Positions 18,691 to 62,922 of a stretch of DNA of 64,000 bases are shown here, one piece after another. Origin of the DNA: an uncultured Prevotellaceae bacterium. GTDB taxonomy: Bacteria; Bacteroidota; Bacteroidia; Bacteroidales; Bacteroidaceae. Position numbers and translations under genes: made by a program. The stretch covers positions 1 through 64,000 of the forward strand of contig CACZBS010000009.1 of assembly GCA_902779455.1 (NCBI GenBank). The letters are read 5' to 3'. A model generated the notes under the pieces. That model worked only from the letters and a program-made list of their open reading frames with translations. It did not search any database and was not told the origin of the DNA. How positions within the stretch are numbered: position 1 is the first letter of the stretch; every line of letters starts with the position of its first letter.

Positions 18691-18729
18691 AAAAAGGACG
18701 TGGCTCCTGTCCTGAGTCAAAGCGGTGCT
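18691..18729 (+). repeat. Right copy of the 39-bp direct repeat flanking the IS
   Basis: Exact copy of 16931-16969. Sequence beyond the repeat differs on the two sides, and the copy starts directly at the IS end, as expected for a target duplication. Confidence 0.9.
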
Positions 18730-18741
18730 TTATCATAGAAA

Positions 18742-18774
18742 AAGCGGCACTTCTCGCTGGGAGAAGTGCCGCTT
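18742..18774 (-). terminator. Terminator hairpin of the 1642-aa protein gene
   Basis: AAGCGGCACTTCTC pairs with GAGAAGTGCCGCTT around a short loop. On the minus strand the stem is followed by a T run (CTTTTTCT). It lies 25 bp after the stop of the gene ending at 18799. The stem shares the core AAGTGCCGCTT with the compound hairpin near 50.9 kb. Confidence 0.8.
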
Positions 18775-18798
18775 CAGTTGTGTTAAAGTGCCGCTTTG

Positions 18799-29212: not shown

Positions 29213-29366
29213 ACAGACCCCACCCCCCAACCCCTCCCCTTGAAGGGAGGGGAGTAGCCTCCCCCGACCCCTCCAAAGGAGGGGAGTGGCTACCGCCCTG
29301 CTCGTAGGGAATGACGGCGCAGCTGCTCCCCTCCCCTCAAGGGGAGGGGTCGGGGGTGGGGTCTGT
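29213..29366 (-). repeat. GC-rich palindromic element in the paaK leader
   Basis: The outer arms 29213-29243 and 29337-29366 are inverted copies (one indel, one mismatch). Inside lie shorter CCCCTCC/GGAGGGG arms and one unit related to the repeats at 36.6 kb. A shorter relative with the same outer arms is at 32045-32105. The element lies between the promoter and the start codon of paaK, so it would be a large RNA structure in the leader. Confidence 0.8.
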
Positions 29367-29408
29367 ATCTTTACTCATTCGTCCTAAGTTTTTACTAAAT
29401 AGCTCGGG

Positions 29409-29440: not shown

Positions 29441-29541
29441 CATTTATGCGGGAAATGCGGGGAAAGACTACTAAAACGGAAGCCTAATGAATAAATAAAC
29501 GTTCGTAGGTTCGATTGAGGAGTTTAGGAGTTTTTTTTAAG

Positions 29542-29649
29542 GGAGTTTAGGAGTTTGGGAGTTTAGGAGTTTAGACGATAGACAAAGACCTGCAAGTCAT
29601 GGCTCAGAACTATCGTCTAAACTCCTAAACTCCCAAACTCCTAAACTCC
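29542..29649. repeat. Perfect 40-bp inverted repeat built from an octamer array
   Basis: The arms 29542-29581 and 29610-29649 are exact reverse complements around a 28-nt loop. Each arm consists of four copies of an 8-bp unit (GGAGTTTA, once GGAGTTTG) plus GACGATAG next to the loop. A partial array (29519-29533) precedes it. It lies 12 bp after the aminotransferase stop. There is an A/T run but no proper T tract, so it is not a textbook terminator. Confidence 0.85.
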
Positions 29650-29660
29650 TTAAAAAATCC

Positions 29661-31987: not shown

Positions 31988-32044
31988 GTATAACGCAGGG
32001 TCTATGATGTGATAAAAAAATTTTTGGAACGAAGGAGGGAAGTT

Positions 32045-32105
32045 ACAGACCCCACCCCCGACCCCTCCCCTTGAAGTGAGGGGAGGGGTCGGGGGTGGGG
32101 TCTGT
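32045..32105 (-). repeat. Perfect 27-bp GC-rich inverted repeat after the second paaK
   Basis: The arms 32045-32071 and 32079-32105 are exact reverse complements around 7 nt and match the outer arms of the element at 29213-29366. It begins 2 bp after the paaK stop (minus strand), so it may end transcription, although only a short T-containing tail follows. Confidence 0.8.
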
Positions 32106-32107
32106 AT

Positions 32108-36844: not shown

Positions 36845-36934
36845 AACTAAAATCACGGCGTGACGGCATAAAATCTCAGTGTGATTTTAAAAAATCTCAG
36901 TGTGACGAAATAAAATCACACTGAGATTTTAGTT
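36845..36934. repeat. 90-bp palindromic element, copy 1 (TCACACTGAGATTTT family)
   Basis: Starts AAACTAAAATCAC and ends GATTTTAGTT, with three blocks related to AAAATCACACTGAGATTTT in alternating orientation. A second copy is at 62830-62922 with the same ends. The rest of the gap to 37050 shows nothing I recognise. Confidence 0.75.
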
Positions 36935-50626: not shown

Positions 50627-50890
50627 CAATAAAAAAGAGCGCGATTTTCATCAAAGTAGGGCTAAAGTGGATGATTTGGGAGAATTTATCAATGGTAAAG
50701 CTTTGATAATCAGACGAAATGTGCGCTGGTGTCATGATTAGAAAAGTGGACGATGAAAAGTGTGCGCACGACAATTAAAGAAGCGCTAAAAATACTCGGA
50801 TTCACGATTATTTGTTAAATAAATTCGCAGTTTTTCGACGTAAAAATACAATCGCCTGATAATCAATGTGTTCGTAGATTTGTGAAAAAG

Positions 50891-50967
50891 AAGCGGTCCT
50901 TTTCGGGGCAAGAAGTGCCGCTTTTCGACCCGAAAAGGACCGCTTCTTGCCCCGAGAAGGACCGCTT
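50891..50967 (-). terminator. Compound hairpin with two alternative folds after the PUL regulator
   Basis: Arm A (50891-50915, 25 nt) can pair with arm B (50929-50945, 17 nt, perfect) or with arm C (50943-50967, 24 of 25). B and C are near copies, so the folds exclude each other. On the minus strand arm A is followed by a T run (CTTCTTTTTC), so it can end the regulator transcript. The loop carries AAGTGCCGCTTTT, as in the terminator at 18.7 kb. The rest of 50513-51037 holds the susC leader and promoter. Confidence 0.75.
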
Positions 50968-51037
50968 TGTCTGCTCAGAGGATGCGAGTTGTAAAGAAAA
51001 ATCTGAATTTTGGCGAAGAACGGCCTGACTGGCCCCG

Positions 51038-56490: not shown

Positions 56491-56665
56491 GGAGGTGAGA
56501 AGTCTTTGAAGTGAGAGGTGAGAGGTGAGAAGTCTTATTAGTTTTGTCGGCAGAGTTGTCAACGGTATCATGTAACAATACTTCTCACTTCTCACTTCTT
56601 GCGTCCCTTTGGTAGCAAGCGTCCTTCGGCCGAGCGCTCACCTCTCACTTCTCACCTCACACAAA
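56491..56665. repeat. GTGAGAA heptamer array, copy 1 (between GH2 remnant and manA)
   Basis: Arms of GTGAGAA/GTGAGAG units (56491-56531) and of the reverse complement TTCTCAC (56581-56599, 56638-56656) flank a core that includes CTTATTAG and CGGCAGAGTTGTCA. The same arms and core occur at 57630-57836. Confidence 0.75.
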
Positions 56666-57629: not shown

Positions 57630-57836
57630 TTATTAAGTGAGAAGTGAGAGGTCTTTGAAGTGAGAAGTCTTATTAAGTGAGAAGTGAGAGGTGAGAAGTG
57701 AGAAGTCTTATTAGTCTTGCCGGCAGAGTTGTCATAATTGTCATAATTGTCAGAGTTGTAATGGGAATTCATGTAACTATACTTCTCACTTCTCACTTCT
57801 CACTTCTCACTTCAAAGACCTCTCACTTCTCAGTTT
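57630..57836. repeat. GTGAGAA heptamer array, copy 2 (between manA and trkH)
   Basis: Left arms of GTGAGAA/GTGAGAG units (57635-57708), a core with CTTATTAG, CGGCAGAGTTGTCA and three ATAATTGTC-like units, and right arms of TTCTCAC units (57780-57836). The core is shared with copy 1 at 56.5 kb, but the number of units differs. Confidence 0.78.
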
Positions 57837-59320: not shown

Positions 59321-60675
59321 CACAGCGTCTGGCGCTTGAAGTATTTCTCGACCTTGCCCAGCGTGTGCTTATGGCAGAACACCATGACGGCGTCGCCGGC
59401 CTCAATCTGCGTGTTGCCGTTGACGAGCATGCCACGGCCACCGCGCACCAGTCCGCCGATGGTCACGCCGAAGGGCAGACCCAGCGACTTGACGGGGTTG
59501 CGGGTGACGCGGGCACCCTCGGCCACGACGAACTCGGCCACGTCGGCCTCGACCATCATCAGCGAGCGCATCGACCGCACGTCGGCCTTGAGCATCATCT
59601 GGAAGATGTGGCTGGCGGCCACCGTCTTCTTGTTGATGATCGTGCCGATGTCGAGTCCTTCGGCCATTGACACGTAGTCGAGGTTCTCGACCATGGCCAC
59701 CGTCTTGCGCACACCCAGCTTCTTGGCCGTCAGACAGGCCAGGATGTTGGTCTCGGCGTTGCCCGTCAGCGAGACGAAGGCCTGCGTGTGGCGGATGCCC
59801 TCCTCGCTGAGCAGACCCAGGTCGCGGCCGTCGCCGTGGATGACCATCGTGTCGGTGTCGCTGAGCAGCTGGTTCAGCCGTTCGCAGCGGTCGGCGTCGG
59901 CCTCGATGATCTTCAGCGTCATGTCGCCGGGCATGGTCAGCGCGGCCCTGACGGCCGTCTTGCCGCCGCCCATGATGATGACGTTGTGCACGTCCTCATA
60001 GTGCTCCTTGCCGACGATCTTGCGGATGTAGGGGATATAGTCGGGCGTGGTCATGAAGTAGGCCAGGTCGTGCAGCTTCAGCTCGTCCATGCCGCCCGGT
60101 ATGATGGTCTCGCCGCCGCGCTTGATGGCCACGACGAGGTAGGGGTCGTCCGGGCCGCAGAGGTCGCGCAGCGGCTGGTTGAGAATCTCGCAGCCCTCGC
60201 GCAGCTTGATGCCCAGGAGGGTCAGCTTGCCGTCGTGGATGTCGACGCGCTGGCGGGCCCACGACATCTTCAGTCCCGTGATGATGTCCTGTGCGGCCAG
60301 CACCTCGGGATAGACGAGCGAGTCGATGCCCAGGTCCTTGAAGAACTGCTGGTTCTGTGCTGACAGATACTCGTAGTTGTCGATCCTGGCCACCGTCTTC
60401 TTGGCGCCCAGCGCGTGGGCGATGGCGCAGGCCGTGATGTTGCGGCTCTCGTTGCGTGTGACGCCCACGAAGAGGTCGGCCGAACCCGTGCCGGCGTCCT
60501 TCAGTGTCTTGATGCTGGTGGGCGAGGCGCATACGGCCATGATGTCGTAGTTGGAGTCGACGCCGGCGAGTCGCTCCTCGTCGTCGTCGATGAGCACGCA
60601 GTCGTGGTTCTCCGTTGACAGCAGCTTCGACAGGTGGGTTCCTACGGCGCCTGCGCCGGCAATGACTATTTTCAT
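59317..60675 (-). CDS. trkA: Trk system regulatory protein TrkA
   Basis: 452 aa with two NAD-binding RCK domains ([19 protein letters not shown] at the N-terminus; [16 protein letters not shown] at about residue 231) each followed by a TrkA-C domain. It gates TrkH in response to nucleotides. The ATG overlaps the dxs stop by 4 bp (ATGA), showing translational coupling. Confidence 0.95.
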
Positions 60676-62705
60676 GAGGCCCCTCCTTCTGCCCCCGAGG
60701 GGGCTACTATAGCTTTTATGATAGATTCCTTGTCCAGTCCTACAATCTGGCGCAGTTCCGCGACCGTGCCGTGCTCGACGAACTCATCGGGCAGGCCCAG
60801 GCGGGTGATGTGCGGCGTATAGCCGTGGTCAGCCATCCACTCCAAGACGGCCGAGCCCAGTCCGCCGTTGCGCACGCCGTCCTCGACGGTGACGATGCGC
60901 TTGTAGCGCCGCCCCACCTCGTGCAGGATCTGCTCGTCGAGGGGCTTGAGGAAGCGCATGTCGTAGTGGGCGGGATTTAGCTCTAAACTCTCAATAGCTT
61001 GCTCCACGTCGTTGCCGATCGGGCCGATAGACAATACGGCCACGTCGCCGTCGCCCTCGCGCAGGCGTCGGCCCGTGCCCACCTTGACGGGCTCCAACGG
61101 GCAGCGCCAGTCGACGAGCACGCCGCGGCCGCGCGGGTAGCGGATGACGAAGGGGCCCTGGCCGGGCAGCTGGGCCGTGTACATCAGTCGCCGCAGCTCG
61201 GCCTCGTCCATGGGCGAGCAGATGGTCAGGTTGGGGATGGGGCGCAGGGCCGCCATGTCGAAGGCACCGTGGTGCGTGGGACCGTCCTCGCCGACGAGTC
61301 CGGCGCGGTCCAGACAGAGCACGACGGGCAGCCGGAGTATGGCCACGTCGTGGATGATGTTGTCGTAGGCGCGCTGTGCGAAGGCAGAGTAGATGTTGCA
61401 GAAGGGCTGCAGCCCGTCCTTGGCCATGCCAGCCGAGAACGTGACGGCGTGTCCCTCGGCGATGCCCACGTCGAAGGTGCGGTCGGGCATCTCGCTCATC
61501 ATGATGTTCATCGAGCAGCCTGTGGGCATGGCCGGGGTGACGCCCACGATGCGGTCGTTCCTTCGGGCCAGCTCGAGCAGCGTCTCGCCGAAGACGTCCT
61601 GGAACTTAGGCGGCTGTCCCGTCGTGTCGCTCTTGAGGCGCTCGCCGGTCTCGGCGTCGAACTTGCCTGGCGCGTGCCAGACGGGGCTGTAGTGCTCGGC
61701 CGGCGCGTAGCCGTGGCCCTTCTTCGTGTGCAGGTGGAGCAGCTTGGGGCCCTTCATGTCCTTCAGCTGTCTGAGGATGCGCACCAGCTCCTTGACGTCG
61801 TGGCCGTCGTAGGGTCCGAAGTAGCGGATGTTGAAGCCCTCGAACATGTTCTGCTGCTGCGAGATGACGCTCTTCAGCGCGTTCGACAGGCGTATGATGC
61901 CCTGCTTGCGGGCCTCGCTGAGCATGCCCTTCGAGGCCAGCCATCGGGCGGCCTTGAATCGCATGGCGTTATAAGTCTCGTTGGTGCTCAGGCTGAGCAG
62001 GTATTCCTTCATGCCGCCGACGGAGCGGTCGATCGACATGTCGTTGTCGTTGAGGATGATGAGCATGTCGTTCGGACTCTGCGACACGTTGTTGAGTCCC
62101 TCGAAGGCCAGTCCGCCCGACATGGCGCCGTCGCCAATGACGGCCACGACATGGCGTTTGAGTTGAGAGTTGAGAGTTGAGAACTGAGAGGTATGATTAG
62201 ATTTTGAGTCAGACTGGGCGGCTTCTTTATCTTCCGTCTGTCCGCTCTTTGGGTAATCATACCTCTCAGTTCTCAACTCTCCGTTCTCAGTTCTCGCCGC
62301 TGCCACCGCCATTCCCAGCGCGGCGGAGATCGAGTTGGAGGCATGGCCGCAGATGAACGAGTCGTAGGGGCTCTCCTCGGGCGACGGGAAGGGGCGCAGG
62401 CCGTGCAGCTTGCGGTTGGTCGAGAACTGCTTGCGGCGGCCCGTCAGGATCTTATGACCATAAGCCTGGTGGCCGACGTCCCATACGATGCGGTCGTCGG
62501 GCGTGTCGTAGACGTAGTGGAGGGCTACGGTGAGCTCCACCACGCCGAGGCTTGAGGCCAGGTGGCCGGGGTTGACCGACAGCTCGCGCACGATGTCCTG
62601 CCTGAGCTCGTCGCAGAGCTGAGGCAGCTGGTCGGTCGTCAGCCGGCGCAGGTCGTCGGGGCTGTCGATGCAGCTGAGCAATTCAAACTTCTGTCCTTCT
62701 TCCAT
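60672..62705 (-). CDS. dxs: 1-deoxy-D-xylulose-5-phosphate synthase with an in-frame palindromic insert
   Basis: 677 aa, first enzyme of the MEP isoprenoid pathway (pyruvate + glyceraldehyde-3-phosphate). Key blocks: [13 protein letters not shown], the thiamine-diphosphate motif [10 protein letters not shown] with NDNDMSID, the Glu of [12 protein letters not shown], and [15 protein letters not shown]. Between GMAVAAAR (ending residue 138) and [10 protein letters not shown] (residue 185) there is an extra stretch of about 46 residues, low-complexity and polar, encoded by a palindromic repeat. Other DXS proteins have only a short loop here; without it the length would be a normal 630 or so. The gene has a strong promoter. 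Confidence 0.95.
62154..62291. repeat. Palindromic repeat inserted in frame in dxs
   Basis: Perfect 28-bp inverted arms (62172-62199 and 62254-62281) with a 54-nt core; the outer parts hold more GTTGAGA heptamers. The insert length is a multiple of three and no stop arises. It has the same architecture as the intergenic heptamer palindromes. Confidence 0.85.
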
Positions 62706-62829: not shown

Positions 62830-62922
62830 AAACTAAAATCACACTGAGATTTATTAAAATCACACTGAGATTTTAATTCGTCACACTGTGATTTATTAAA
62901 ATCACACTGAGATTTTAGTTTC
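62830..62922. repeat. 90-bp palindromic element, copy 2 (TCACACTGAGATTTT family)
   Basis: Same ends (AACTAAAATCAC and GATTTTAGTT) and internal blocks as 36845-36934. It lies in the gap between the divergent dxs and lipoate-ligase genes. Confidence 0.75.

Follow-up and report, generated by a model that had tools for sequence, protein, structure and literature searches.

A palindrome lying in frame in dxs of an uncultured Prevotellaceae bacterium is probably a stripped copy of a mobile element that carries an IVP/S23p gene

The dxs gene of an uncultured Prevotellaceae bacterium contains, in frame, a long palindrome, which raises the question of what kind of DNA this is and how it came to lie in a gene for an enzyme. 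The gene codes for 1-deoxy-D-xylulose-5-phosphate synthase (DXS) and occupies positions 60672..62705 (minus strand) of the window, the 64,000-nucleotide stretch of DNA analysed here, which corresponds to bases 1-64000 of contig C9 in a 3.7 Mb draft genome of 49 contigs and 93% completeness. Its ORF of 677 aa is recognised by Pfam DXP_synthase_N and NCBIfam TIGR00204. The first-pass annotation had described a perfect 28-bp inverted repeat in the dxs frame, and segments 62172-62199 and 62254-62281 are indeed exact reverse complements; a longer version of the repeat has arms of 36 nt each (62164-62199 and 62254-62289) that are 92% complementary. Comparison with other copies places the ends of the whole element at 62161..62292 (minus strand), a segment of 132 bp with A...T ends whose 44 in-frame codons come near enough to the 46 or so added residues first estimated. 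The insert immediately precedes a 10-residue stretch of DXS. Its N-side arm, read first in dxs (62254..62292, minus strand), is composed of an A, four heptamers, GG and TATGATTA, while its C-side arm, read last (62161..62199, minus strand), encodes a 13-residue peptide. The 54-nt loop between them (62200..62253, minus strand) consists of polar codons and varies between copies. GTTGAGA heptamers are present in the arms as first described; they are not the sole unit, since the four heptamers of each arm are a mixture of GTTGAGA, ACTGAGA and ACGGAGA.

DXS was matched in 59 of the 60 relatives searched. The named DXS relatives are chiefly Prevotella and Prevotellaceae, many being MAGs from the rumen, and the closest orthologues are ~80% identical to the DXS of the window. 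It had been asked earlier whether the insert is strain-specific or conserved in all related DXS proteins. The linker that holds it, surveyed in 80 named genomes and measured in 77 (three linkers were not located), has 4-20 residues in 76 of them and 34 in one (L257) against 50 in the window dxs, showing that the insert is not conserved among these relatives. A 7-bp periodicity (shuffle p <=0.01, linkers >=24 nt tested) was detected in 6 of the 77 linkers, including the long one, L257, from a Prevotella in which this dxs loop is occupied by GTTGAAC heptamers arranged as a palindrome. Different heptamer arrays thus occupy one dxs loop across species. Its variability in relatives suggests that this loop is surface-exposed.

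The dxs insert belongs to a large population of repeats. Three consecutive RNTGAGA heptamers with zero mismatch are found 183 times in the source genome; among 301 family genomes searched, the runner-up has 80 matches and 104 have any match. From ~100 listed places plus 63 listed places, 65 array loci were collected as a sample of the genome. At least 25 of these, dxs among them, lie in frame within 24 genes, a gene being counted when its open frame includes a Pfam domain as well (of 30 spanning ORFs searched with Pfam, 24 had a domain; the six domain-free frames were not counted). The hosts, some named on a Pfam basis alone, are dxs, guaA, glnS, topA, purL, miaB, mutS2, tsaB, mtnN, queG and genes for an lpdA-like reductase, an ABC transporter, a fucokinase/pyrophosphorylase-type protein, GH31, GH92 and GH28 proteins, a helicase, a pullulanase-type protein (two inserts), an FAD-dependent protein, an alpha-2-macroglobulin, an outer-membrane protein, a TPR protein, a HAD hydrolase and a CARDB protein. 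A further in-gene palindrome, beyond these 24 genes, is found in ftcD. At C23:57102 (L163) a palindrome lies at the 3' end of a gene whose frame stops at a heptamer TGA (...KPSESEN*), and the element seems to supply the stop codon of that gene.

The view that similar repeats are intergenic holds for the three other window copies tested, none of which has a stop-free frame, and fails genome-wide, where 25 of the 65 loci are in genes. One of the three, at 29534..29657, is a second hairpin of the dxs kind with GGAGTTTA arms and the inner end GGAGTTTAGACGATAG; the others, at 56510..56656 and 57636..57834, are palindromic arrays of RGTGAGA heptamers. All three have no strand assigned and are spanned by no frame. 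For the in-gene loci, orthologues from up to three relatives were aligned to 18 of 22 pieces (none for GH31, GH92, queG and GH28; matches <85 residues were dropped). The relatives lack the insert or have another peptide there, save in genome G018, which shares the glnS and mutS2 inserts and has an fkp insert of similar type.

Other palindromes occur in the same DNA. A repeated 21-bp palindromic unit, TAAAATCACACTGAGATTTTA, at 62836-62921 and 36848-36931 forms a separate, intergenic-looking family with one copy just upstream of dxs. C-rich palindromes on ACAGACCCCACCCCCGACCCCTCCCCT lie at 29219-29372 and 32044-32106, with a similar stretch at L179, and palindromes of AAGCGG(T/C)(A/C)CTT-like units at 18718-18798 and 50888-50968. 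A sister palindrome type with TGAAAGATATGATTA arms is present in several genome copies (L174, L180 and L182 at C2:157075, C5:23043 and C5:23136).

In eleven palindromes built like the dxs insert, each arm runs inwards from an A through four RNTGAGA heptamers and RG to TATGATTA (degenerate in some); a loop separates the two mirror-image arms, and the element length is 78 bp plus the loop. The loop can be divided by 3 in all 7 in-gene copies of this set, versus 1 of 4 others. When the register of the arms was analysed, the C arm of purL and the C2:102717 copy proved to be out of register, and the C1:152456 copy had more than four heptamers on one side. Growth of the arms after insertion was considered and rejected, as the in-register arms have four heptamers in the in-gene copies and in most others.

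Reading through such arms is constrained by stop codons. In the TGAGA orientation an array puts TGA into each frame once per three heptamers. Single-orientation arrays make up 19 of the 25 in-gene loci, and in all 19 the array has the orientation in which every frame is open. All eight in-gene palindromes (dxs, topA, miaB, pulA twice, purL, GH31 and ftcD) have one and the same reading frame in the N-side arm; by the consensus, a second frame of this arm would likewise need just one change. The in-frame stop would fall in the third heptamer, where TGA is lost in 8 of 8 and replaced by GGA, GGA, TTA, TCA, TTA, TCA, TGG and GGA. In dxs this is the GGA codon at 62280..62282 (minus strand) in the heptamer ACGGAGA, whose consensus would give an in-frame TGA. 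Heptamers 1, 2 and 4 of the same eight arms have lost TGA in only 2 of 24 cases (Fisher p 4e-6). Since the substitutions comprise four different codons, stop loss probably arose as separate events. At the level of the DNA, the contrast between the third heptamer and its neighbours demonstrates selection against an in-frame stop in the in-gene inserts, and it indicates that the insert peptide is translated. The C-side arm yields a recurrent 12-residue peptide, or the form TSHLSPLTSH in the AGTGAGA type.

A longer copy of the same design suggests the origin of these elements. At C5:179130-179607, arms of the dxs type with the same inner core surround a 121-aa gene of PF05635/TIGR02436, the 23S rRNA intervening-sequence protein (IVP/S23p). 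The protein sequence matches the solved chains 2rld and 2gsc; its profile matches are confined to IVP/four-helix-bundle families, with no nuclease domain recognised, and a comparison with PHROGs gave no match. We know of no catalytic activity of IVP. At another level of detail, 16 nt of the inner arm end of IVP locus L184 are identical in the window hairpin 29534-29657. The source genome has 12 PF05635 matches, 11 of them above the cut-off, and ten were examined (L194 and L195, on C25, were left out). Inverted arrays of 7-bp (once 8-bp) units with a score >=26 bracket nine of these ten genes, L193 being the one that is not bracketed. The array units differ among the genes, L190 and L192 being alike. 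The IVP genes L205 and L195 have in-frame stops, as expected of decaying mobile elements.

The association extends beyond this genome. At a score >=13, bracketing was found for 26 of 29 IVP loci in a family sample and 15 of 30 in a phylum sample, both made of best-scoring rather than random matches, and for 0 of 264 control segments (0/150 from the window, 0/114 from the same IVP loci). PF05635 is matched in 116 of the 148 genomes of the phylum sample, up to 16 times per genome. Across 81 family genomes the numbers of IVP matches and RNTGAGA arrays are correlated (rho 0.44, p 4e-5; 0.41 without the source genome), and 22 of 35 IVP-bearing family genomes have no RNTGAGA array. If in-gene palindromes descend from IVP elements, the genome with the GTTGAAC palindrome in dxs (L257, genome G504) should have an IVP gene with matching arms; one of its five over-cut-off IVP genes, L337, has four GTTGAAC heptamers on each side, one base off on one side. 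In G504 and G505 together, all seven over-cut-off IVP genes are bracketed; for the four matches that fall short of the cut-off, bracketing is doubtful (scores 7-20). Arms and gene were also compared between genomes, using 42 of 46 IVP loci with arm score >=13. Mean arm 6-mer sharing is 0.25 for IVP pairs of >=60% identity (30 pairs) and 0.03-0.04 for less similar ones (784 pairs), and the overall correlation of IVP identity with arm sharing (rho 0.16) was reached by 0 of 500 permutations. The IVP gene therefore tends to be passed on together with its arms, with one repeat type replacing another over time.

These observations are best explained by a mobile palindromic element that, when complete, has an IVP/S23p gene between inverted arms of 7-bp repeats, the dxs insert being one of its non-autonomous copies; comparison of sequences makes this reading probable. 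It rests on the arm plan and inner core that the dxs and C5:179130-179607 copies have in common, on the fixed ends, the many in-frame copies and the stop removed in each of the eight in-gene palindromes, and on the bracketing of IVP genes, the co-inheritance of arms and IVP and the GTTGAAC match in G504. Counted against it are the one own and three family IVP genes not clearly bracketed, the sub-threshold half of the phylum sample, the little that the loops of in-gene copies have in common, two genomes with arrays and no IVP match (G083, G103) and a third, G506, with an array in dxs (L258) and no IVP match. The element would insert at numerous sites, each time as a unit with set boundaries; inside genes, copies would persist given a length divisible by three, an open frame and a loop that tolerates the addition. 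The extra polar residues would then be translated and nearly neutral for the enzyme, and IVP would recognise its own hairpin.

IVP resembles the Avd protein of diversity-generating elements. A reverse-transcriptase mechanism, prompted by this likeness, was dropped because PF00078 has no match in the source genome (at 93% completeness, a missing enzyme is possible); 8 of 13 genomes with >=3 IVP matches also have no PF00078 match. A REP/RAYT or IS200-type element was rejected in the same way, the Y1 transposase PF01797 having no match in this 93% complete genome and at least one in 27 of 81 family genomes. It thus seems that neither enzyme is needed. A broader proposal, which we hold to be evenly balanced between acceptance and doubt, is that IVP/S23p is the mobility protein of phylum-wide elements that have palindromic arms of short tandem repeats and themselves encode neither transposase nor reverse transcriptase. 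Such elements, complete or stripped, would enter protein genes in frame and would repeatedly have lengthened loops of housekeeping enzymes.

The palindromes might instead be ordinary MITEs moved by another transposase, with IVP genes as passengers that settled in hairpin loops. They resemble MITEs and REP/BIME sequences, as portrayed in PMC3733652, in being short, palindromic, multicopy and devoid of an own ORF, and the IVP-bearing copy is a putative autonomous partner with matching ends. Most copies seen lack an IVP gene and IVP has no recognised nuclease domain, which favours this view. The palindromes differ in their heptamer arms and in the absence of a Y1 transposase match (the transposase search covered PF01797). 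Inspection by eye of the ends of 11 elements showed no direct repeat of >=2 bp. Passenger genes would also leave the co-inheritance of IVP and arms and the widespread bracketing in the family poorly explained, and this alternative is judged unlikely.

Polymerase slippage could in principle create 7-bp microsatellites of no mobility. According to the survey in PMC4679880, short tandem repeats in many bacterial genomes most often have a heptamer as their unit, and slippage is put forward as the source; the present arrays are patchily distributed and linker loops are naturally tolerant sites. The TAACTGA-type repeats of that survey are likewise patchy 7-bp tandem arrays, found in some Bacteroidetes, but they are direct repeats of one fixed unit, mostly intergenic, and a link to IVP does not figure in its account of them. 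Slippage does not predict that heptamer runs peak sharply at four (48 of 91 runs), that the arms are mirror images with the common core TATGATTA, that they bracket IVP genes and not control segments, or that the base beyond the fourth heptamer is A at all 22 ends of 11 elements (purL omitted; one of these A's lies within a fifth heptamer). Slippage as the whole explanation is very improbable.

A regulatory role might also explain why the hairpin is retained, RNase III acting on dxs mRNA being one example. Folded as RNA, the dxs insert with its perfect 28-bp stem reaches -69.8 kcal/mol (z -13.1; 0 of 200 shuffles equally stable), and RNase III cuts the rRNA element treated in PMC4990558. Yet copies are scattered over unrelated genes and the dxs insert is not conserved in relatives, making such a role highly improbable. 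An assembly or binning artefact at dxs, for which the 49-contig draft and the many MAGs among named relatives might speak, is scarcely credible given the frame kept in 24 genes, the loss of TGA from all 8 palindromes, the presence of the glnS and mutS2 inserts in G018 as well, and another species with its own palindrome in the same dxs loop.

Two known systems come close to the preferred reading of a mobile IVP element. The intervening sequence (IVS) of one 23S rRNA gene, as set out in PMC4990558, combines a 28-bp stem with an S23p ORF and with heptameric repeats whose number varies; that source calls the function of the IVP/S23p family unknown and cites an older idea that the IVS ORF served mobility. 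The likeness lies in terminal inverted repeats forming a 28-bp stem, which the dxs copy has, in heptameric repeats and in a PF05635-type ORF that the complete form carries in its loop, as at C5:179130-179607, and that is absent from the 54-nt loop of dxs. Published IVSs described there reside in rRNA genes and are excised by RNase III, whereas the present elements lie between or inside protein genes, the insert discussed here in dxs, and many copies have no ORF. The window gave no Rfam match at the gathering threshold. The Rickettsia palindromic elements, to which the insert had first been likened, are described in PMC10969869 and PMC2229807 as sequences of ~100-150 bp inserted in frame in conserved protein genes and translated. 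A short palindrome in frame in conserved protein genes is what they share with the dxs insert, and this part of the comparison stands; the closest kin is instead the IVP/S23p element of rRNA IVSs. In the elements studied here the arm peptide recurs and the loop peptide varies; the heptamer arms, the IVP-bearing full form and the phylum are points of difference. With a location outside rRNA genes, no ORF and a likeness to Rickettsia elements seen at the level of plan and behaviour, the dxs insert was assigned to neither class, and may be viewed as a functional parallel of the Rickettsia elements.

No earlier report of IVP-linked in-gene palindromes was found in the open-licence papers searched. 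If the proposed origin is true, the orphan IVP/S23p family would gain a role, and rRNA intervening sequences would be tied to in-frame palindromic insertions in protein genes. The older idea of an ORF serving mobility, cited in PMC4990558, would become testable in culturable gut bacteria. The elements would then represent a second, probably wider, case after those of Rickettsia of mobile DNA adding peptides to essential proteins.
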